A stretch of 64,000 nucleotides of DNA from Hexactinellida sp. DTS-2022 (lineage: Eukaryota > Porifera > Hexactinellida): assembly GCA_028753945.1 (NCBI GenBank), contig JAPNXP010000016.1, positions 1,954,001 through 2,018,000 on the forward strand. The letters are read 5' to 3'. This document shows positions 5,164 to 36,382 of this stretch, piece by piece (position 1 is the stretch's first letter; each line of letters starts with the position of its first letter). Below the pieces are notes generated by a model. That model had not been told where the DNA came from and made no database searches. It worked only from the letters and a program-made list of their open reading frames with translations. The translations under genes and the position numbers were made by a program.

Positions 5164-5709
5164 CTAAGATATTTTAATTGTTTTCTTCTTACTATTCGAT
5201 TGTTTCGAATATTTGACACCGGTGGCACAAAGGTTAGCAAAATGTTCGCAGTTGTTTGACATCATAACATAAGTTGTCCAATCTTTATTATCCTCATCGA
5301 ATTGGTATATTTCTATCGCTTTCATGGCTGTATCTTTCTTTGAACGTCTATTGTGTGATGAAAAGTCTGTTTGGATACCTACTTGCTTACCATCCAAAAA
5401 TACTTTCAAGCTAACCTTCTCCAACAGACCTTTATCTCCTCCAGTCATTGTAAAATGGATTACTTCCCCCTTACCGATATACACTCCATAATGGCAGTAG
5501 TTAGCCCATCCTGCTACACCAGGTAGTGGCCTGTATATTATATCTCCAAACACCATCTCAGCTATTCCATTTCCAGTAAATGTATTGTGACCTGTTGATC
5601 CTTGAATAATGCGGTCGCTTGCTGATGCTCCAGATGCGCTAACACCCCCCACTGAAGCTACACCTAAACCTGTAGAGGCTACACTTTCAGAGGTGAGGCT
5701 TGAACCCAT
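5164..5709 (-). CDS. LRAT-domain protein, 181 aa, Ser/Gly-rich N-terminus
   Basis: LRAT/PLAAT-fold enzyme paralogous to the 4011-4415 gene. It has an extra N-terminal stretch of about 50 residues rich in Ser, Ala and Gly. The catalytic set is complete: His73 (CHYGVYIG), His85 (VIHF) and Cys154 (NCEHF), followed by the family's ANLCATG. It begins MGSSLT, again a myristoylation-type N-terminus. The C-terminal tail is lysine-rich (SNSKKKTIK). Single exon. The nearest relative is the 8892-9502 copy, to which it is very similar along the whole length including the N-terminal extension. Expected action: acyl transfer or hydrolysis on membrane lipids; the exact substrate is unknown. Confidence 0.85.
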   Translation of the reverse strand: MGSSLTSESVASTGLGVASVGGVSASGASASDRIIQGSTGHNTFTGNGIAEMVFGDIIYRPLPGVAGWANYCHYGVYIGKGEVIHFTMTGGDKGLLEKVSLKVFLDGKQVGIQTDFSSHNRRSKKDTAMKAIEIYQFDEDNKDWTTYVMMSNNCEHFANLCATGVKYSKQSNSKKKTIKIS

Positions 5710-17821: not shown

Positions 17822-18616
17822 TTAAATTATAGCCTGTCTTGAGTACTTGTGTCCAGTGGCACAATAATTAGCAAAATGTTCACAGTTATTTCTCCTCCAA
17901 TTGTACTCGCTCCAATCCTCTAGCTCTTCGTCCAGCTGATAAATCTCGAAAGCTTTCTTACAAATTTCTTTTTTTTTCTTTGTCTCGAAACGGAATTTAG
18001 TTTGAATCCAAAGTTCTGTGTTTCCATCGAGAAATTCCTCCACACTCACTTTCTCTAATAGCCCTTCATTGCTGTTTGATTCGCTACACATGAACTGGAT
18101 TGTTTCATTCTTGCCAATATACACTCCATAGTGGTAGAACATTCCTTTGACCCCTTTAAGTCTCCTGTATAGAACATCTCCCGGTTGATACGTAACAGGT
18201 ACTGAGCTGTACCCTATATGCAGTAAGCTAGTCCCTATCTCGTTAACTGTTGCTAATAGCTCTTGTATTAAGAACTGATAGAAACTAACTGCTATCGCTA
18301 TACTTGATTCTATCATCTCTTTCGTTCTGTTAACCCCACTGCTCACTGAATACACCATTTTATCGCTACAAATACTTACACACGATTTTGTGTTTTGTAT
18401 TGCAAAGCTGCTACTCTCTCTGCACACGCTCTTTGCTACATTTATTCCTATTTTAAGCGCAGAAACAAAGCTGTATCTGATTGCTTTGATTATGAGCACA
18501 CTTGCATTAAGTGAACAGGTGGTGACACTATAAACTGCTAGGCTAGTCGCTACTGTAGGCATTCCTTTGACCCTGCTTAAGCTCCTAGGTGTTGATCTTG
18601 AGGCTGAGATCCCCAT
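17822..18616 (-). CDS. LRAT-domain protein, long form, second His replaced by Gln
   Basis: Fourth LRAT-fold gene. I choose the ATG at 18616 (MGISAS...) over the upstream in-frame ATG at 18664 because it gives the same M-G-x-S start as the three paralogues. That yields 264 aa. The N-terminal half (about 145 residues) has several hydrophobic or amphipathic stretches that the other copies lack. The LRAT domain is at the C-terminus. Counting from 18616, the first His is 162 (YHYGVYIG) and the Cys is 245 (NCEHF). The position of the second His, 12 residues after the first, is Gln174 (TIQF). This could alter or abolish enzyme activity. Single exon. Confidence 0.82.
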   Translation of the reverse strand: MGISASRSTPRSLSRVKGMPTVATSLAVYSVTTCSLNASVLIIKAIRYSFVSALKIGINVAKSVCRESSSFAIQNTKSCVSICSDKMVYSVSSGVNRTKEMIESSIAIAVSFYQFLIQELLATVNEIGTSLLHIGYSSVPVTYQPGDVLYRRLKGVKGMFYHYGVYIGKNETIQFMCSESNSNEGLLEKVSVEEFLDGNTELWIQTKFRFETKKKKEICKKAFEIYQLDEELEDWSEYNWRRNNCEHFANYCATGHKYSRQAII

Positions 18617-18664
18617 TATATTGTACGATCCGCTTCTTATAGAATTAATTGAGTTGATTATCAT

Positions 18665-25917: not shown

Positions 25918-26099
25918 TAAGAATAAGTTTACAGTAATAGTACTTATTTGTTGTATGTCGAACTCTACGATAATGTATTATCCGATGAATTAAAACATTA
26001 ATAAATACGTAAATAAATCACTAATATGTATGCAAATGCACGTTAGATTACTATACGAAATATAGTACAAAAATTACTCTTTATTAAAAATTTGCAATA

Positions 26100-26258
26100 C
26101 AGTAGGACCTCGTTAGTACGAAGACGGTTATTACGAACACTAAATTTTCCAGTCCCCTTCAAAGCCTTTTCAATCCAAATAATTTGGTTAGTACAAATTC
26201 CAGATAAGGCGAACGCATTTTGACGGTCCCCTGGTATTCACACTAACGATGTTCTACT
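26100..26258. mobile_element. Pogo-like MITE just upstream of the SelU start
   Basis: CAGTAGAACCTCG-family copy: starts cagtaggacctcgttagtac and ends aacgatgttctacta. Its right end is about 40 bp before the SelU start codon, so it probably lies in the promoter or leader. Confidence 0.75.
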
Positions 26259-26298
26259 ATAATGGCTAGATACCTAACTGGATTAGTCCCTGCGATAA

Positions 26299-26829
26299 AT
26301 GGCGCATTTGCAAGGCGTCAGTTTGACGGACGCCCACACGAAGGAGAGCATAGCATCTGAGGAGCTCTGGAGAGAGCGGCCTGTCGTGATACAGGTCATC
26401 CGCCGGCCCGGGTGAGGCCTGTGTCGCGACGAGGCCGCACAGCTGGCCTTGTTGCGGCCGCAGCTGGAGGGCTTGGGGGTGGGGCTGGTGGGGGTTTGTC
26501 ATGAGTGGATAGGCGCCGCGGAATTCGCGACTTTCCTCGGAGGGAAAGTGTATGTGAACACCACGCGGGAGTTTTTTGGACCAAACTTGAGATGGATGCC
26601 AATTTCATTTATTTTGAAACCTAGCGTATTATCTAGTTTTATAACTTCTTGGAGGTACGGGCATTCTGGTAATGCGAACTTTAGAGGGGAGGGGAGACTG
26701 CTGGGAGGGGTGTACGTGGTGGGGACAGGGGACCAAGGTGTTGTGTACCGATTCGAGGAGCCACAGCCTGGCGTGTATGCGCCTATTGAAGATATCGTGA
26801 GAGCGGCAGATACTGTGAAGATAATATAG
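26299..26829 (+). CDS. SELENOU: Selenoprotein U (peroxiredoxin-like 2A family), UGA read as Sec
   Basis: Thioredoxin-fold protein of the SelU/PRXL2A (FAM213A) family, thought to act as a redox regulator. From the ATG at 26299 (an in-frame TAA lies directly upstream) the frame encodes 176 aa with a single internal TGA at 26413-26415 (codon 39). Its surroundings read RRPG-U-GLC-RDEA, aligning with the family's redox motif RRPG-C-x-x-C-REEA, so the TGA replaces the first Cys of CxxC (UxxC). Downstream family segments are GGKVYVN, EFFGP, GEGRLLGGVYVVGTG and QGVVYRFEE. A SECIS hairpin follows at 26854-26920. The usual N-terminal membrane helix is missing or lies on an unseen upstream exon; an AG at 26312-26313 could accept one. 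AATAAA lies at 27095-27100. Confidence 0.93.
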
Positions 26830-26853
26830 TTATTCGATAATTTAAATGCAGTG

Positions 26854-26920
26854 AGCAGTTGTGCATTATGATTATGTCATATTAAAGTCTATCTGGCATT
26901 TGATGTTAAAACATACTGCT
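26854..26920 (+). promoter_or_regulatory. SECIS element (form 1-like) in the SelU 3' UTR
   Basis: Starts 25 nt after the stop. Helix I: AGCAGT (26854-26859) and TGT (26860-26862) pair with ACTGCT (26915-26920) and ACA (26911-26913), with one bulged T. An internal loop follows (gcatta / gttaaa). The quartet TGAT (26869-26872) faces TGAT (26901-26904), giving the U-U, G-A, A-G, U-U non-Watson-Crick core. Helix II: ATGTCA (26874-26879) pairs with TGGCAT (26894-26899), extendable by two A-U pairs. The apical loop carries the conserved adenines at 26884-26886. ATGA-N12-AA spacing fits the consensus. Confidence 0.9.
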
Positions 26921-27805
26921 AACTGAATCTATTTGATTTAAAAAGATATTTTATATTTCAATTTTGCATACGTAATTATGTATTTATTCCAATTACAGTA
27001 ATTTAGTTTTAATGTAAGAAAGTCGCCAGATGGAAGTATAGCTCTATAGGTTATGTTACAATTAGTGTCGCTTATCGTCTGACAGAAATTATCTAATAAA
27101 GTACGTAGTATGTAATATTGTTGCTACATGAGATGCTTCGCTTGTTCACTATGTACCCTTATTGTTATGGATTTCCAACCTGAACACCACACAAATCACA
27201 TTTATTAAATATGACACAATATTAAACCCAAATATGCAAACGGTATACTGTTGTTGGTTTATAATTTGATTTGCATTATTCTATCATTTTAGAGACATTA
27301 ATTAACCTTACGGCTTAATTTGTAGCCATTTTTGGCTGCTTTACTGTTTTACTAATAATTCTGTTATAAACTCAAAGGTTTTAGACTTTTAGTCAATTGT
27401 ATTCACGTTAAACAGTGTTAATATCTAAATTCTAATATACTCATACGAATAGTGGGAAAGTCATTTATTACCAACATGAATTCGACCATAGCCTTGATTC
27501 GACCTATCTACGAAATGAATCCTGACTTGTTGGAATTCTCGTTCGGTTGTCAGTCTCTTATCTTGAATCATTCCACTTTGAGAGAATGAAAGCTCAAAGC
27601 TATTCAAATCCAATGGAACCCATACCAATCTGCACATCGTAACTCGATACGTACAAACTGTTAGGCTAAGTCCTTGATTCGACTAAAATCAACAGAGTAG
27701 ATACTTTTCAGTCCATCTACATTACATAACTCCAAAAAGCAGTATTCACGAATCATTTCCCACTAGTTATAAAAGCTACCAAATATAATTAAGGAGCAAT
27801 TACTA
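26921..27805. other. SelU 3' end and leader of the LRRK-like gene
   Basis: The first about 180 bp are SelU 3' UTR up to AATAAA at 27095-27100. The rest is AT-rich with no ORF, RNA or clear repeat. Irregular repeats of cttgattcgac (27492, 27673) are noted. Confidence 0.45.
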
Positions 27806-30800
27806 ATGCAGACACGATTAGACTCAGACTTGACTAATTTGGGCTGGTTTAAGAGCTACAAAAAGTGTTTAATTAACGCTCTAGAACAAGCTAATGCTGA
27901 ATACAACGATTCAACTCTTCTCGCCACTAAAGGAACAAACGCATTGCACATAGGCGCCAATATAGCTAACACTAACATTTTAATATTCGCTATAAAGTGT
28001 TTCATTACCCAACCAGGCATCGTGACATTCGAGCGTGTCAAATCGTTTGTAGATACTATCGATGAGAACGGTTTCACCGCACTGCATCTGGCTTCCATGG
28101 AAGGCGATTGGAAGTGCGCTAAGCTGCTCGCTCGCTACGGGGCAGACATGCACCTGACTTCTAACGGGAAAACCAACGCACTCGACCTAGCCAGGAGAAA
28201 CAGGACTGGCAATCACAAGGAGGTCAGCAGTGGCCTGGCTAAATTGGCTCAGGAATTAGAGCGCAATGGTTTTCTAATGGAACAGCTGGAGGCACAAATG
28301 GAGGTTATCTGTTCTCAGTCCATCAACAGTCCAGACGCTAATCAAGAGATCTCGAATCTAATTATAACCAGACACGTCGATATCAACTTCACTGATCCCA
28401 TTGGAGATACTCCCCTGCACTTGGCATGTCTCGCTAGTAACGAATATTTAATGATTAATCTACTGTTCTTCAAAGCTAACACTACCTGCATTCGCAACGA
28501 GAAAAGCCGCTCTTTATTACATTTCGCGTGCAAACATATGTTAAGCATCCGATTCTTCCTGGCTAGAAAGTTCCCCTATCTGTTGACTCTCCCTGACAGC
28601 AAGGGATGTCTGCCTATGCATATCTCTGCGAAAAAGGGAGATATGGAATTTCTCGTATTCCTATTCGACCGTGAGAGGTATCCTCTCGACGAACCGGAGC
28701 CTCGAGACGAAGACACTAACCAAGTTCCGCAGACGGATACGGAAGATTGCCCTCCCACTCGATTCGACTGCGTTAGACTAACTCAACACAGAATTTCAGA
28801 TCCTGGCGTCACAAGGCTACAGTTAAACGATTTTTTACGCAACCACGCAGATTCCCAAGCTAAGAAGAAGATCTCGCTAGCAGATAAATTCCGGTTTAGA
28901 AGTAGCAAGACGATTGTGACTAGTGAGGTTGAAAAGCCAGTGTTTGATGAAGAGTTTAAGAGCACGTACAAAGATCCTGAGCTTAAGGAAGAAGATGAGT
29001 TATCTCAGCAACTATCCGATATTTGCTACTGTATAAAGCGCCTCTCTCTGACTGATGAGACCATAGATGAGCGCTCTATGTTGCATTTTGCGATAGAAAA
29101 GGGGCATTTGCATATAGTGGAGTTTCTAATTGAGGTGTGTGACATACATGCCAGGTTTGCGAATCAAAATTGTTCGGTTGGTGACATTGTAAACAAAAGA
29201 ACTGAATTCGGTCTTTCTCCATTGGCCGAAGCGTTTAATTGCAATCGTATTGAAATTGCAGAGTTTCTATTGAGTCACAAAGCGAGCATGCTTAATACAT
29301 CATGTGAGATCCTGTCCAAGTTCTTGGAGGAAACAGATTCAGAGCAAGTCTTGTTATTCTTGCGCGAGCTAACCATGGATACCTTCAAGGATTTCTTGAG
29401 TGTATTCACAATTGAGCATGCCATAGACACACCGCAAACAACTTCTCTGCTCCATTCACTCATGAAAGAGGAACAGTTTAATCTCATCTCATTTCTACTC
29501 GCCAACAAAGTTAAGTTCAATATGGAGGCTCTCATAATCGCGTTCACACTCTGCATTGTGGAACTAAGAGTTGAACATTTGAAGTTACTTATTCAAGAAT
29601 TTCCTGAAATCAAATTGAACTCAGAAATCGTTACATTGAAGCAATTCCTCAATCAGACAAATATTAATCTTAGTTTCATTTACGAAGCAGTCAAAATGAA
29701 GGAAATTAAAATTCTTAAGTTGCTCCTCGATTCGGGGGCGGACCCTACGTTATACGAGCCGAATTCCTTAGGCCGCAATCTGTTGTACATAGCCTATAAG
29801 CACAGCTGCAAAGACAAGGGAGAGCTATTCCTGACTCTATTGGACTACGGAGTTAATATTAATTTGCAGGAAGCGATCGAAGGCGCGGGGAATTATGCGG
29901 ATTCCTTATGCATGATCTGGTTGCTAGTGTTGCATGTAATTGCAACGAATTTGCAGTCTCTCTCAATAAAACGCAGAGTGTCCCATGCGGAATTTGTAAG
30001 TGATCCGGATTTGGTTGTCTACAAGGGCTCTGTTTTGTGGGATGACTTTGGTTTCCATTTCGTTGAGCTGGAATGGATCGCAGCTTGTGCCTACATTGTC
30101 GATAACCTGGACGCAATTATAGGAGATTACCGCGTGGCTCACTCGTCTAGTTACCCCAAAGCTACAGACCATAAGTTCTACAAGTTTGTAGTTAGCCAAC
30201 TCAAATCCTCTAACATTCTAAAGTCTATCTCTCCCACGATTCTAAAGGAAACCTACATCGGCAAGCTTTCGTTCCAGAACAACAAACTCAACAATGTTCC
30301 CATTGAGATATTCGACCTCCCTCACCTTAAGGAGCTCAACTTGTCCGATAACCGCCTGGCCTACATCCCAGAGCGGAGAGCAGACTGCCAGCTGGAGACA
30401 GAGGAGGAGAGCATCAAGAGCAGGTACGGATGCAAGAGTCTTAAGATACTCGATGTGTCCAACAACGAGCTACAGAATCTCCCAGCTGATCTGTTCTACC
30501 TGCCTAAGATATCCGAGGTGGAAGCTAGCAACAACAGACTAAGCGTTCTCCCACCCGAGCTCTGGCTGGCTGAGAGCTTGACAACGCTAAAGCTCAATAG
30601 GAATCTGCTACGTCATCTCACCAAGTCAGATATAGAATCCCTCGAGAGTGGGTTTTGTTCCTCACTTAACCCCCGAGCTTCCTTCTTCATCAGAAAGAGA
30701 GTCGAGACGATGCCCATCCCAAATCTCCCTAACATCAAGGAACAAAACAAAGACGGAGAAAACTCAAGAAATCCCCTTGACTACTTACCCATATTCATAG

Positions 30801-33800
30801 ATGCGTACACTGCGGATATTTCTTCTCCCACCAATACCACATGTACAGGCACATGCACAGGTAATGGCACTGGCAGTGGGGACACAGGGTCTCCTCTCGA
30901 TCAGGGCAGGCGTCCCTCAGTCAGACACCCCCTCCCCATTCCTAACTGGACAGACTATTCGTCTCTGCAGACGATTGAACTCTCGTTCAATAAGTTCATG
31001 GTGTTCCCTCACGACCTGGCTTGCATCGCTCCAAAGCTTCAGAGACTCGACATGAGAAATAACAAACTGAAGAAAATGAATATTCTCCTGGATCTCCCAA
31101 AGTCCCTCCATCTAATACTATTCGACAACAACCAGATAACCACTCTGTTGGAGCAGTTAGATCCCTTCCCTTGCTGCAGTCCCTGCTGCTTGGCACTGCA
31201 GGACCGACACGACAAGAGCTCAAAGCCAAAGTGGTGCACTCACCACCAAATAGCGCCCTTTCCGCTTCTCCAGACAATCTCATTCAACAACAACCAGCTG
31301 ACTGACCTGCCTATAGAAAAGTTCTTGAAAGAGGAGCTGCCTCATGAGCTCATAAAGTCAGATAGCAACAGCAAAAAGTATTTTGTGCTTTTCCCTTCGA
31401 TCCTAGCGCTCTCCATCTCGGAGAACAGATTCACAGAAGTGCCTAAGGGAATATCCCTGCTTACTTCCATCACTTCTCTTAACCTCGCTTTTAACCACGA
31501 GATAAAGCAACTCCCACCCTCCCTAAAGTCCCTAAGCAACTTGTTCTACATCAATTTGGCTGGGCTTGAGATTGACGGGATTCCCGACTACATTCTAAAG
31601 GGACAAGCGCCCAGGCTGATTAGCTTCCTAGCTAGCCAATCGCAGGATACGAAATCACATCGTACTCTCAAGCTATTCTTCATGGGTGATGAAGGGAATG
31701 GCAAATCAACACTCATGAGTCATTTGGGGAAAGGCAAGATTTCCTTGTACGGACCTCAGTGCGCTGCTTCTACATTGAAGCCTAAGCAACTGCAGGAAGC
31801 GTACAGACCCACCACAGGCGTGGAGACTGGCGTGTGGGAGCTGAATCGGCCGCGGAGATGGGAGCACGGAGCCGCCAGCAACTCTCCGATCAGATTCATT
31901 TGTTGGAACTTTGCTGGGAAAGAGGAATACTTTCCTGCGTACCAAGGCTTCATGTGTCAGAGGTCTATTTATATAGTCGTGTGGGACATAACTGAGGGCG
32001 TTATTGGTGTCAAGGGACTCGAGAAATGGATACAATGCATTGAACAGAATGTGCCAGGAAGTTCTTGTTTTATTGTGGGTACTTTTCTAAACAAAGTTAA
32101 AATGAAGAAGTCAACCATTAAAGACATGACAGAACATATAAATGGCATATTTGACAAGTCAAAGTTCCTCTACCCCAAACTCCTTTCTATTCACTTCCTG
32201 GATTGTTTCGACGAAGAGAAGGTTTCGCACTTGAGAGAGCTTATATACTACGAGGCCACAAAACTGTCTTCCAAGGACAAATCGAACTCGGCTGCGACAC
32301 CAATTCTTGAAAAACTAATTCCTGTTAACCAGGTTCTTCTCTTGCAATACGTAACTCTAATCAAGGACAAATCTGAAGTGCAAGACAAGATCCGTATCCT
32401 ATCGAGTGAGCAATTCCGTGCTCTTGTCCAGAAGGTGTGGCAGGGCCAGTTTATGGAGGATCACGATTTCCACAACGCAGTCAAGTTCCTACACAGCACT
32501 GGGTATCTAATGCATTTCGAAGACGACCCTGAACTGATGGATCAGTACGTCATCAACATGGAATGGCTATGCAACAAGTTCGTTGCTGTGCTGAGGTCTC
32601 AAATCCCGCTCACAGAGCACCAGCAGATAATGAAGTGTGGAGTGGTACAAAAGCAAAAAGTGTTCGATAATCTAAAGATTCTCAAAGTGCATCCAAAGGA
32701 TTTCACCAAATTCATCGCTTTTATGAAAAAATTTGAGATTCTGATTGAGTTATCTGACAAGTTCTTTATTTTCCCGTCCCTTCTTCCTAAAAATAAGTCC
32801 CAAGCTACTCAACTGACTCTCAAATTCAATCTATACTCAAACGAGTCTTTCTCCCTCCCCAACTACATCGACTGTCCTCAGATCGAGTCGGACGCGGCAA
32901 ACTCTCTCTCCTCTGTCTCTTCCGCGCTTCTGTTAAACTTGCCAACTTTCCGAGTTGAGCCCGCTAAGATGACCAAGCCACACAAACGAGACTCGGCAAA
33001 CATAGCGTTCTCTCAATGGGTGCGCCTCTACCTGACTCCTTTAATCCCCAGCAATTTCTGGGCCCGTCTTCTGTCGAGAGTTATCGCTGATCAGAGCTAC
33101 CTGGCGACTCTACAGAACTACCTGGACATACACCTGAAGACATACCAAACGAGCGAAGTTGACAAAGTTATCAATGAGATAACCAATACTCTACAGTGGA
33201 AGGTTTGGAATAACGGACTAAGTTTGCATGTTGGGAACGATGAGATTCTGCAAGTTAGCTACCTGCTGCTTCCGAGTCTGCACTTCACAGATTTGTATCT
33301 CGTCGACCAGGATCCTAACGAGCTCTCCCCGAGCAAGGGGGAGTATTCAGGGGGCGTACATGTACTGGTTAGGGAATGGGAAGGAATTAAAGTCGACTCG
33401 AACAAACCTCCAATAAACACACCTGCAAAGTCTCCCAGTGGGCACTACCAGCTGACGAGTGACCCCAGCATTTCCCTGCAGCTGGCTACCTGGCTGTTAC
33501 AGAGGTCTGCCTACCACGTAGAAGAGGTGTTTGATGAATGGCAGGAAAAGCTGTATACCGTGCGTCGTAGCATATTTAATCCTGTCAGTCAGCACCTCAC
33601 GTGTTACATCCCGTGTCCCAAATGCTATCTCGCACTCAGCAAGCACATCGATCCGCTCGCGAAGGGGTCCCTCAGTAACCCTACTATCCTAGAGGATACT
33701 GATAGCGCAGAGCAGTTGGAACTCGAGACAATCAACGTAGAGGATAGGGAAGGGGAGATTGAGGTCATCAACGAGTTATTTGTCTACAGCATTATATACC

Positions 33801-36382
33801 TCTGCAGCCTGGCTCGAGACTGTAGACGGTTCAACTGCCCCACCCACGGTTCCATCGCCATAGCGCATCTAATCCCGGACATCCTGTTCCAGGACCTCCC
33901 TGGCAAGCGGGTATACGACATAGATTCAGTTAGGAAGTACAAGCTTATTGGGGAAGGCGGGTATGGTAAGGTGTTTCGCGGGAAAGTATTCTCGATGATA
34001 ACCTTACAGGAACAAGAGATCGCGCTTAAAGAGGTACGCGCGTCAGATGACTCTATAACGCATCCAGATAACGTGAATGAGAGGCACTTCCTGGTGTACA
34101 AGTCCTGTTCTGTGGAGGTGCGTGTGCTAGTACAGCTGAGACATGCCAACATACTCCAGATGGTAGGAGTAACCATATCTCCCTACTGCATTCTGATGGA
34201 AATAGCACCACAGGGGGACCTTAACAAAATGATAAAGCTGTACAACAAGGCCAAGTCATACATATCTTCATTCGCTATTACACTGACCTGCAAGCAGGTC
34301 GCCTCTGCTCTCGCCTACCTACACTCACTTCGCATTATATACAGAGACTTGAAGCCTAGCAACATATTGGTATTCGAGTATCCACAGCCCCTAACAGAGC
34401 AGAACCAGAAAGACACCAACAACGTACTCGTTAAGGTAGCAGACTATGGGATCAGTTCCTTCCTGGCTCCATACGGACTCAAGGGCGGGGCTGGGACTGA
34501 GAAGTACATGGCACCCGAGGTTCTGAAGAAGTCGGGAGAGCTCAGCAAGCCAGTCGATGTGTACGCGTTTGGACTTGTCTTGTACTGTCTGATTACGCTA
34601 GAGACCCCATTCGCTAACGATCCTATTCCCATCTCTAAGCATAAGACCCTCAAAGGCGCCCGTCCCGAGGTGCCTATAAAAGCCAGACCCAGAGCGATAT
34701 ACCTAATGGACCTCATGCGATGGTGCTGGGCGCATAACCCCAATGAAAGGCCTTCCTTCGTCCAAATAGAGGAAGCATGCTCGACCGAATCTTTCCAGCG
34801 ATTGCTATTCGCCTGCCAGGTAACGAGGAACAAGAAGAACCCAACTTGCGCATGTCTGGTCCAATCAAACCATAAACGTAAAATAGACCCCGCAACACCG
34901 TTACTTCGCAAACAGCGCAGTTCCACCGGAAATGTGTACAGAAAGAACTCTGCGGGCTCAGCTGATCCGCCCCACATAACTGCCAGCTGTTCCGCGGGGA
35001 ATCTCTCCGAGCAGCAGGAGAAACTGCTGGAGATTTGCGAGGAAACCAACACGTCACAGGAAGACGCGCCTGCAATAGATAAGAGGGCGGGCTGCTTGCT
35101 GCTGAACCTGAATGATATTTCCACGTTTAATACGTGCGGTGTCGATAGCTTGACAAGTGAGGACTCTCTTCCCATCACGCCGTTTGACGAGGACAGCATT
35201 CCAATGGACAGACAGTACACAGCTGTTACCTTCATGAAGCCAGTCGTCTCCATCGCATTCACTAACTCACAGCTCTGGTACGGCACTGGAGAAGGGAATC
35301 TTAACTTCTTTGAAGTTCTCGAGAAGGAATTTCGCGTTAAAGCCGCGCAGAAGTTTAACGGCTCTCGCATCCACTGCATGGTGAGTGCGGGTAACTACGT
35401 GTGGATCGGCACTGACAATACCGGACTGCATATATTCTCCATCAAGTCGCATAAGAAGGTGGGGACATGGATACAGAAAGAGGATTCGAATGGGCACCAT
35501 CACAGACAGATTCTCAGCCTATGCTACGTACAGGAATACGATTATATAATCGCCTCTTCCAGCTCTGGTTCCCTATTCGTGTTCGCACTAGCTTCCAACC
35601 CCCCTGAGACCGCAGTCCCTGTGTTCGTAGCGGAGCAGACACACGCGGGGGTGTGCATGGCGCTGGCTAGACTGCCGGGACGCGAGCTGCAGATGTGGTG
35701 CGGGGCTGACGAGTACAGGATCATACGGTACTCCTGCGATCCGAGTGGCACCCTCCTAGCGCACAACAACTTCACATTCCAGGGCCCCAAGCGCGGGAAG
35801 AGACCTAACATAGAACACATTTGGTCTTTCGAGGAGCGAGATAAGCTAATCTGCTCAGTGGGCTGTGGGCTGGGACAGCTGAGCCTCGCGGAGCCCGCGT
35901 GGATTCAGTACACGAGTTGCGCCAGGTTGCTAGGCTGCAGCGAGTACCAGGGCCGCATCACTGCTATGACGGGCTACCAACATCTGCTGTATATAGGCAC
36001 TGGGTACGGAGCCATCCTCATATTAGACCCGGAGAAACTCGTGCCTATCGGGAAGATACACGAGTACAATGAGCCTGTGCGTGTCTTGATTCCCACTGAG
36101 TCTAACTTTGGCAGACTGGTATCAAACCCCTCTACGACACGGCCGCACAACAAGCGAGGCTCCTACTGCGATCCACTGAAACAGAAGCCTCAGTCCCTGT
36201 TAGTTAGCATTGGACTGTCTTACCAAGGAATCACAAAGTCTGCTACGAACACTCCTAAGACGCTAGAACCGGTTGTCGAGTGGAGTTCTAATGATTACCA
36301 CGAACCGACAAAACCTAACACGGAAGATGGATATCTGTTGATATTCTCACTAAAGGGATGGGCTAGTCCAGCGGTACAATGA
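27806..36382 (+). CDS. LRRK: LRRK-type Roco protein: ANK-LRR-Roc-COR-kinase-WD40, 2858 aa
   Basis: Giant Roco-family Ser/Thr kinase. Domain order: ankyrin repeats (about 40-300 and 425-520, e.g. NGFTALHLASMEGD); LRRs (about 820-1285); Roc (about 1290-1480) with P-loop GDEGNGKS 1294-1301; COR (about 1490-1900); a Cys/His-rich linker (CPKC...NCPTHG, about 1935-2020); kinase (about 2040-2330) with GEGGYGKV 2049-2056, Lys2075, YRD (Asp2181), KPSN and DYG (Asp2213, Gly2215), all catalytic residues present; WD40-like C-terminus (about 2470-2770). YRD plus DYG is characteristic of LRRKs. In Roc, the G3 Asp is Asn1368 (WNFAG) and the G4 position reads GTFLN (Asn1429) where LRRKs have THLD, so guanine binding may be weak. 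Entire 8.6 kb is one exon. LRRK1 and LRRK2 cannot be told apart. Confidence 0.93.
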   Translation: MQTRLDSDLTNLGWFKSYKKCLINALEQANAEYNDSTLLATKGTNALHIGANIANTNILIFAIKCFITQPGIVTFERVKSFVDTIDENGFTALHLASMEGDWKCAKLLARYGADMHLTSNGKTNALDLARRNRTGNHKEVSSGLAKLAQELERNGFLMEQLEAQMEVICSQSINSPDANQEISNLIITRHVDINFTDPIGDTPLHLACLASNEYLMINLLFFKANTTCIRNEKSRSLLHFACKHMLSIRFFLARKFPYLLTLPDSKGCLPMHISAKKGDMEFLVFLFDRERYPLDEPEPRDEDTNQVPQTDTEDCPPTRFDCVRLTQHRISDPGVTRLQLNDFLRNHADSQAKKKISLADKFRFRSSKTIVTSEVEKPVFDEEFKSTYKDPELKEEDELSQQLSDICYCIKRLSLTDETIDERSMLHFAIEKGHLHIVEFLIEVCDIHARFANQNCSVGDIVNKRTEFGLSPLAEAFNCNRIEIAEFLLSHKASMLNTSCEILSKFLEETDSEQVLLFLRELTMDTFKDFLSVFTIEHAIDTPQTTSLLHSLMKEEQFNLISFLLANKVKFNMEALIIAFTLCIVELRVEHLKLLIQEFPEIKLNSEIVTLKQFLNQTNINLSFIYEAVKMKEIKILKLLLDSGADPTLYEPNSLGRNLLYIAYKHSCKDKGELFLTLLDYGVNINLQEAIEGAGNYADSLCMIWLLVLHVIATNLQSLSIKRRVSHAEFVSDPDLVVYKGSVLWDDFGFHFVELEWIAACAYIVDNLDAIIGDYRVAHSSSYPKATDHKFYKFVVSQLKSSNILKSISPTILKETYIGKLSFQNNKLNNVPIEIFDLPHLKELNLSDNRLAYIPERRADCQLETEEESIKSRYGCKSLKILDVSNNELQNLPADLFYLPKISEVEASNNRLSVLPPELWLAESLTTLKLNRNLLRHLTKSDIESLESGFCSSLNPRASFFIRKRVETMPIPNLPNIKEQNKDGENSRNPLDYLPIFIDAYTADISSPTNTTCTGTCTGNGTGSGDTGSPLDQGRRPSVRHPLPIPNWTDYSSLQTIELSFNKFMVFPHDLACIAPKLQRLDMRNNKLKKMNILLDLPKSLHLILFDNNQITTLLEQLDPFPCCSPCCLALQDRHDKSSKPKWCTHHQIAPFPLLQTISFNNNQLTDLPIEKFLKEELPHELIKSDSNSKKYFVLFPSILALSISENRFTEVPKGISLLTSITSLNLAFNHEIKQLPPSLKSLSNLFYINLAGLEIDGIPDYILKGQAPRLISFLASQSQDTKSHRTLKLFFMGDEGNGKSTLMSHLGKGKISLYGPQCAASTLKPKQLQEAYRPTTGVETGVWELNRPRRWEHGAASNSPIRFICWNFAGKEEYFPAYQGFMCQRSIYIVVWDITEGVIGVKGLEKWIQCIEQNVPGSSCFIVGTFLNKVKMKKSTIKDMTEHINGIFDKSKFLYPKLLSIHFLDCFDEEKVSHLRELIYYEATKLSSKDKSNSAATPILEKLIPVNQVLLLQYVTLIKDKSEVQDKIRILSSEQFRALVQKVWQGQFMEDHDFHNAVKFLHSTGYLMHFEDDPELMDQYVINMEWLCNKFVAVLRSQIPLTEHQQIMKCGVVQKQKVFDNLKILKVHPKDFTKFIAFMKKFEILIELSDKFFIFPSLLPKNKSQATQLTLKFNLYSNESFSLPNYIDCPQIESDAANSLSSVSSALLLNLPTFRVEPAKMTKPHKRDSANIAFSQWVRLYLTPLIPSNFWARLLSRVIADQSYLATLQNYLDIHLKTYQTSEVDKVINEITNTLQWKVWNNGLSLHVGNDEILQVSYLLLPSLHFTDLYLVDQDPNELSPSKGEYSGGVHVLVREWEGIKVDSNKPPINTPAKSPSGHYQLTSDPSISLQLATWLLQRSAYHVEEVFDEWQEKLYTVRRSIFNPVSQHLTCYIPCPKCYLALSKHIDPLAKGSLSNPTILEDTDSAEQLELETINVEDREGEIEVINELFVYSIIYLCSLARDCRRFNCPTHGSIAIAHLIPDILFQDLPGKRVYDIDSVRKYKLIGEGGYGKVFRGKVFSMITLQEQEIALKEVRASDDSITHPDNVNERHFLVYKSCSVEVRVLVQLRHANILQMVGVTISPYCILMEIAPQGDLNKMIKLYNKAKSYISSFAITLTCKQVASALAYLHSLRIIYRDLKPSNILVFEYPQPLTEQNQKDTNNVLVKVADYGISSFLAPYGLKGGAGTEKYMAPEVLKKSGELSKPVDVYAFGLVLYCLITLETPFANDPIPISKHKTLKGARPEVPIKARPRAIYLMDLMRWCWAHNPNERPSFVQIEEACSTESFQRLLFACQVTRNKKNPTCACLVQSNHKRKIDPATPLLRKQRSSTGNVYRKNSAGSADPPHITASCSAGNLSEQQEKLLEICEETNTSQEDAPAIDKRAGCLLLNLNDISTFNTCGVDSLTSEDSLPITPFDEDSIPMDRQYTAVTFMKPVVSIAFTNSQLWYGTGEGNLNFFEVLEKEFRVKAAQKFNGSRIHCMVSAGNYVWIGTDNTGLHIFSIKSHKKVGTWIQKEDSNGHHHRQILSLCYVQEYDYIIASSSSGSLFVFALASNPPETAVPVFVAEQTHAGVCMALARLPGRELQMWCGADEYRIIRYSCDPSGTLLAHNNFTFQGPKRGKRPNIEHIWSFEERDKLICSVGCGLGQLSLAEPAWIQYTSCARLLGCSEYQGRITAMTGYQHLLYIGTGYGAILILDPEKLVPIGKIHEYNEPVRVLIPTESNFGRLVSNPSTTRPHNKRGSYCDPLKQKPQSLLVSIGLSYQGITKSATNTPKTLEPVVEWSSNDYHEPTKPNTEDGYLLIFSLKGWASPAVQ

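Follow-up and report, generated by a model that had tools for sequence, protein, structure and literature searches.

Results

The reading frame and its in-frame TGA

The window analysed here is the whole stretch of 64,000 nucleotides (G000:C8:1954001-2018000), and the genome searched alongside it comprises 112.4 Mb on 18 contigs. The window carries a predicted SelU/PRXL2-like selenoprotein gene, which is followed by a SECIS-type hairpin (Table 1). Its reading frame begins with an ATG at 26299, which a base-by-base check found to be immediately preceded by an in-frame TAA, and runs over 177 codons to a TAG at 26827-26829. The TGA at 26413-26415 is the sole internal stop. The original prediction had described the same frame of 177 codons broken by one TGA, and its coordinates match ours with no further stop. 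It had also expected routine annotation to truncate the gene. The active site is indeed lost from the product of a stop-to-stop ORF finder, but 50 codons are dropped, up to the TTG at 26449, and not the 39 that had been foreseen.

Table 1 The predicted selenoprotein gene, its surroundings and related loci of the same genome (positions refer to the window unless a contig is given)
Feature	Position	Strand	Remarks
MITE-like terminal-inverted-repeat element	26097..26261	+	not part of the gene; ends 37 nt before the ATG
SelU/PRXL2-like selenoprotein CDS (predicted)	26299..26829	+	one uninterrupted exon, 176 residues, putative Sec39, stop TAG
In-frame TGA, codon 39	26413..26415	+	putative Sec; opens redox motif U-G-L-C
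TGT, codon 42	26422..26424	+	second redox residue (Cys) of U-x-x-C
ORF-finder product (stop-to-stop)	26449..26829	+	126-residue fragment from TTG, without active-site Sec
SECIS-type hairpin, 3' UTR	26854..26920	+	helix I, quartet, helix II, apical AA; descriptor scan and folding
5' quartet strand TGAT	26869..26872	+	preceded by A
Apical AA	26884..26885	+	11 nt inside the quartet
3' quartet strand TGAT	26901..26904	+	
AATAAA	27095..27100	+	possible poly(A) signal, 3' of the hairpin
Two adjacent SBP2-like genes (L042, L043)	G000:C8:2209653-2213545		same strand, about 3.6 kb apart
Second SelU gene (L013)	G000:C15:863254-863526		RRPG-U-FLC; hydrophobic N-terminal stretch (by eye)
SelL-like gene (L008)	G000:C4:4527978-4528304		motif U-HP-U
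SelL-like cluster (L007, L010, L011, L012)	G000:C6:4873647-4878256		three on one strand, one on the other

Family and subfamily

Model PF13911 (AhpC-TSA_2) matches the window protein with 43.1 bits (E 6.3e-11, cut-off 27), which identifies an AhpC-TSA_2/PRXL2 domain. At E<=0.001, two PDB entries only are matched, and both are prostamide/prostaglandin F synthases (PRXL2B). The best of them, 9us9 (E 3.7e-14), can be aligned over window residues 8-168 and carries a cysteine facing the TGA codon as well as a cysteine at residue 42. This bears out two statements of the original prediction, namely that the TGA occupies the place of the first redox residue (RRPG-U-GLC) and that family sequence flanks it on both sides. 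Because the alignment includes residues upstream of the TGA, codons 8-38 represent coding sequence of the same family and not a chance open frame. The solved enzyme has Cys where the sponge protein is predicted to have Sec.

SelU1, SelU2 and SelU3 correspond to PRXL2A, PRXL2C and PRXL2B, respectively. The earlier assignment to SelU/PRXL2A stands at the level of the PRXL2/SelU family, but PRXL2A (SelU1) specifically is not settled because the PDB matches are exclusively PRXL2B. In the phylogenetic tree, which carries a long-branch warning, PRXL2B is represented by one row only and is set apart from the group of the window gene together with rows including several named PRXL2A (87/80), and the window gene itself groups with its six close homologues and P0053 (98/99). 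SelL is a related family, and five loci of the same genome match its model NF040769 (SelL_rel_redox); the window gene has one Sec codon, the motif U-G-L-C and 17.8 bits with this model against a cut-off of 120. With very high probability the window gene encodes selenoprotein U, with SelU1 and SelU3 both in play.

A SECIS-type hairpin behind the stop codon

The hairpin in the 3' UTR has the facing TGAT quartets and the apical AA of the original prediction; the gap that separates it from the stop codon is 24 nt and not 25. The 5' quartet lies 39 nt past the stop, and an ATTAAA at 26881 sits within the hairpin. When the 160 nt following the stop were dinucleotide-shuffled 1000 times, our final descriptor found no structure as good; among 798 160-nt window tiles (both strands), three were. 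Ranked solely by energy, the hairpin comes 7th among 106 window candidates, or 3rd among 26 when the pattern [AG]TGA..[TC]GA is demanded. Upon plain folding it reaches z = -1.74, and 13 of 200 shuffles fold equally well. Helix II is short with six firm pairs; the 3' quartet strand is base-paired in the minimum-energy fold and open in the centroid. The Rfam SECIS model matched neither at the gathering threshold in the whole window nor at E<=1 in 26200-27600. A SECIS-type structure, the absence of which had been named as evidence against the original prediction, is detected by our own descriptor only. Taken alone the hairpin is weak, and the case rests on its place and on the genome context.

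The final descriptor comprises a TGA quartet, a GA partner, AA or CC as apical bases, and helix energies. It went through three rules, the last of which was rewritten after hairpins had been spotted by eye in the family loci. Rule 1 recovered the hairpins of the window gene, L008 and L012, gave nothing for L007 and picked different sites at L010, L011 and L013; rule 2 gained L007, gave none for L010 and L013 and again another site for L011. Under the final rule, the 5' quartet lies 27-48 nt past the stop in all seven family genes, a count that stems from a partly tuned descriptor since the rule was rewritten after hairpins had been seen in these same loci. The seven hairpins have energies of -12.2 to -20.3 kcal/mol. 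The same rule places the quartet 55 nt past the stop in SPS2 and 83 nt in TGR, and finds no hairpin for GPx.

All controls were run under the final rule. Of 1000 shuffles, none was as good for six family genes and SPS2, and one was for L010. Among the 798 tiles, those as good numbered five for L013, one for L008, none for L007, 11 for L010, two each for L011 and L012, and one for SPS2. We also inspected the 160 nt past 18 TGA-free frames, six in fetched loci (machinery genes and the PRDX6-like gene included) and 12 in the window, some of whose ends may be exon ends rather than true stops. None of these 18 gave a hairpin at -12 kcal/mol or better; 16 had no candidate, and the other two reached 0.2 and -1.9 kcal/mol.

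MAFFT did not bring the seven family hairpins into one register. When the four hairpins of the SelL-like cluster were aligned, 40 of 40 cells were paired, all ten helix II pairs were kept and two pairs had changed on both sides. With four rows only, the covariation score was equalled in 21 of 500 shuffles, and the count of double-changed pairs in 102 of 500. The base preceding the 5' quartet is A in seven of the nine hairpins, G in one and T in one. For Amphimedon, the consulted part of the 2012 report gives 12 of 21 SECIS elements as GUGA (PMC3473315). With one in nine here, the GUGA form may not be a trait common to all sponges.

Selenocysteine machinery and further UGA genes

The genome encodes tRNA-Sec, eEFSec, SBP2, SecS and SPS2. 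The original prediction had staked the selenocysteine reading on a tRNA-Sec and had also pointed to EFsec and SBP2, and all three are present. One tRNA-Sec locus exceeds the cut-off (75.8 bits, anticodon TCA), and four weaker matches are tRNA-Ser. The eEFSec frame comprises 591 residues (E 1.6e-188 to 5izk); it is also the best of 23 genome matches to the selB family, none of which exceeds the cut-off (177.8 of 242 bits). Two SBP2-like frames of 722 and 492 codons have the L7Ae region in common, the shorter one being devoid of the N-terminal part of the longer. The 722-residue frame, the only one compared with PDB, matches 7zjw with E 5.6e-39.

SecS lies above the cut-off (506 bits, E 1.8e-150). 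SPS2 is seen as four exon matches on contig C17, each below the family cut-off; the first of them contains KLKG-U-GCKV and therewith a UGA of its own, and the further stops of this stretch sit in sequence that was read through as if coding. PSTK is probably present as well, with a candidate at 106 bits (cut-off 382, E 6.6e-29) in an uninterrupted 321-residue frame. TGR, ending with GGC-U-S, and GPx, with NVASA-U-G, are both found above their cut-offs.

TGA at the redox position of seven family loci

A genome search with PF13911, which looks at exons one at a time and may overlook members, yielded eight loci. All seven that exceed the AhpC-TSA_2 cut-off have a TGA at the redox position. In their frames, the internal stops are all TGA and all lie at the redox motif, and the terminators are TAA or TAG; for L008, as no start was found, reading set in at an arbitrary position within the exon. 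The eighth locus, below the cut-off and PRDX6-like by our own reading, has kept Cys and contains no internal stop.

Four of the seven family loci possess a second TGA three codons after the first. The spacing U-x-x-U is the hallmark of SelL. Five genes of this genome are SelL-like, and four of these are clustered in a stretch of about 5 kb. Each of the five is accompanied by a SECIS-like hairpin. Four have U-x-x-U and one has U-x-x-C, the motifs in the cluster being U-LP-U (L007), U-NP-U (L010), U-PF-U (L011) and U-IF-C (L012). The five loci match NF040769 with 86.3-115.8 bits (E 1.8e-24 to 1.6e-33), all below the curated cut-off of 120. According to the part of the 2012 report consulted, SelL has two Sec residues and the six invertebrates tabulated there have at most one SelL each (PMC3473315). 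It is likely that glass sponges possess an all-selenium, expanded PRXL2/SelL set, as suggested by the predicted Sec in seven of seven loci above the cut-off in this genome, five of them SelL-like, along with two adjacent SBP2-like genes. The all-Sec family, the pair of SBP2-like genes and the SelL cluster are more unusual than the window gene, and they belong to other parts of the genome. With U-x-x-U genes next to a U-x-x-C gene, the cluster provides a ready-made series in which to study the role of the second Sec.

Most listed database relatives begin past the predicted Sec site

A first homologue search at E<=1e-8 returned seven proteins. Six are close homologues of 111-118 aa with 64-83% identity, among them one of 118 aa from the glass sponge Oopsacas minuta, and every one of them starts past the Sec site. 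In a subsequent profile search, 8000 candidates were scored; the best 120 of 294 proteins are the top of a list and not a random sample. Of 125 proteins, four SelL relatives and the product of L013 itself were excluded, which left 120 SelU-type rows. Among these listed matches, 67 start one or two residues past the Sec site. A further 25 were divided by eye into 20 that start further downstream, so that 87 of 120 in all start past it, and five that appear joined around the site as if its exon had been skipped. Five rows have W at the site and 23 have C, the latter possibly including deposited U; the W rows probably reflect gene calling with UGA as Trp. Two proteins, P0071 and P0080, resemble truncated relatives of L013.

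Records that lack the site are expected where a UGA is conserved, and the truncation suggests, indirectly, that the relatives have a TGA there as well. Our reading restores the active site to a gene that ordinary ORF finding truncates, as apparently happened likewise in the records of its relatives. The wider lesson is one for the database census, as most of the SelU-type rows among the matches listed lack the Sec site.

Interpretation and alternative explanations

We consider it almost certain that 26299-26829 encodes a PRXL2 (SelU) selenoprotein in which the UGA of codon 39 is decoded via SECIS and which would act as a U-x-x-C reductase. The hairpin in the 3' UTR would be bound by SBP2, which would recruit eEFSec with Sec-tRNA(UCA), such that selenocysteine is inserted at the UGA. 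Translation would terminate at the TAG, and Sec39 and Cys42 would together make up the redox centre of the resulting thioredoxin-fold reductase. The frame, the family homology to either side of the TGA, the sequence of the hairpin and the genes of the decoding machinery are directly observed; transcription, Sec decoding and thiol/selenol redox function are what we infer from the nucleotide sequence. The decoding of the UGA as Sec, central to the original prediction, is strongly supported at this level by the presence of tRNA-Sec, eEFSec and SBP2, by the TGA in seven of seven family loci above the cut-off and by the hairpin.

A single internal stop within an otherwise complete frame is also what a young pseudogene looks like, the TGA having arisen from TGC or TGT by mutation or from a wrong base in the sequence. 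Against this, the TGA lies exactly on the redox position, where it is common to all seven family loci above the cut-off, four of which have a second TGA three codons further on. The paralogues by themselves make such decay very unlikely. Moreover, the protein downstream of the TGA shows 83% identity with P0001 in an alignment that covers 64% of the query, and a hairpin is in place after the stop. We regard a pseudogene or sequencing error as highly improbable here.

Should UGA serve as a sense codon such as Trp throughout the genome, a SECIS would not be needed, and the five database homologues with W at the site among the 120 listed could be cited in favour. But TGA is confined to the redox motif in the seven family frames, the solved homologue has Cys at the site, and the genome has tRNA-Sec, eEFSec and SBP2; the probability of a reassigned codon is close to nil. 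Finally, translation might stop at the UGA or restart downstream of it, the working product being the fragment listed in databases, as for the Oopsacas minuta protein. Such a product would be devoid of the conserved N-terminal part and of the active-site residue, it would leave the SECIS without a role, and it does not agree with the family homology kept at codons 8-38. We deem it very unlikely.

Relation to known sponge selenoproteins

For the demosponge Amphimedon queenslandica, Jiang et al. reported four SelU genes, at least one of them incomplete, one SelL and three sponge-specific AhpC-like selenoproteins in the part of their 2012 report consulted, which also records Sec-form SelU for Amphimedon and other invertebrates (PMC3473315). 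The window gene is accordingly of an already known type, and shares with Amphimedon SelU the PF13911 domain, a Sec (predicted here) at the first redox position and a SECIS past the stop. It differs from Amphimedon and invertebrate SelU, as far as described in that part, in that its coding sequence is a single exon, that no hydrophobic stretch is seen at the N terminus (by eye) and that the motif is U-GL-C, and it comes from what is probably another sponge class. Judging by the one named close homologue, from Oopsacas minuta, and by the style of the genome, the DNA is most likely that of a hexactinellid. In the sections consulted, glass-sponge genomes are described as small with many single-exon genes (PMC10282587, PMC10280926), and the Oopsacas genome paper lists a predicted selenocysteine tRNA (PMC10280926). 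The Aphrocallistes paper does not contain the string 'seleno' in its main text (PMC10282587), five sponge terms do not occur in PMC4561486, and we found no survey of glass-sponge selenoproteins among the open-licence papers listed. The window gene suggests that selenocysteine is used in a class of sponges on which these papers yielded no such survey.

A retrocopy was considered for the single exon and is not needed, because the Aphrocallistes paper, in the portion consulted, counts 19,578 genes and, alongside these, 12,409 transcripts of a single exon (PMC10282587).

Surroundings of the gene in the window

The MITE-like element upstream of the gene is repeated genome-wide, with 40 near-full-length copies scored (itself included) of 2263 first-look candidates. 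Ends similar to it also occur 3' of L007 and L012. Elsewhere in the window, a tRNA-Ile (TAT) at 1770-1867 is, with 98 bases, longer than usual and probably contains an intron. Two separate LRAT-domain frames reside on the minus strand (5164-5709 and 17822-18664). An LRRK2-like frame at 27806-36382 is uninterrupted over 2858 codons and comprises ankyrin, LRR, Roc-COR, kinase and LRRK2 beta-propeller regions.
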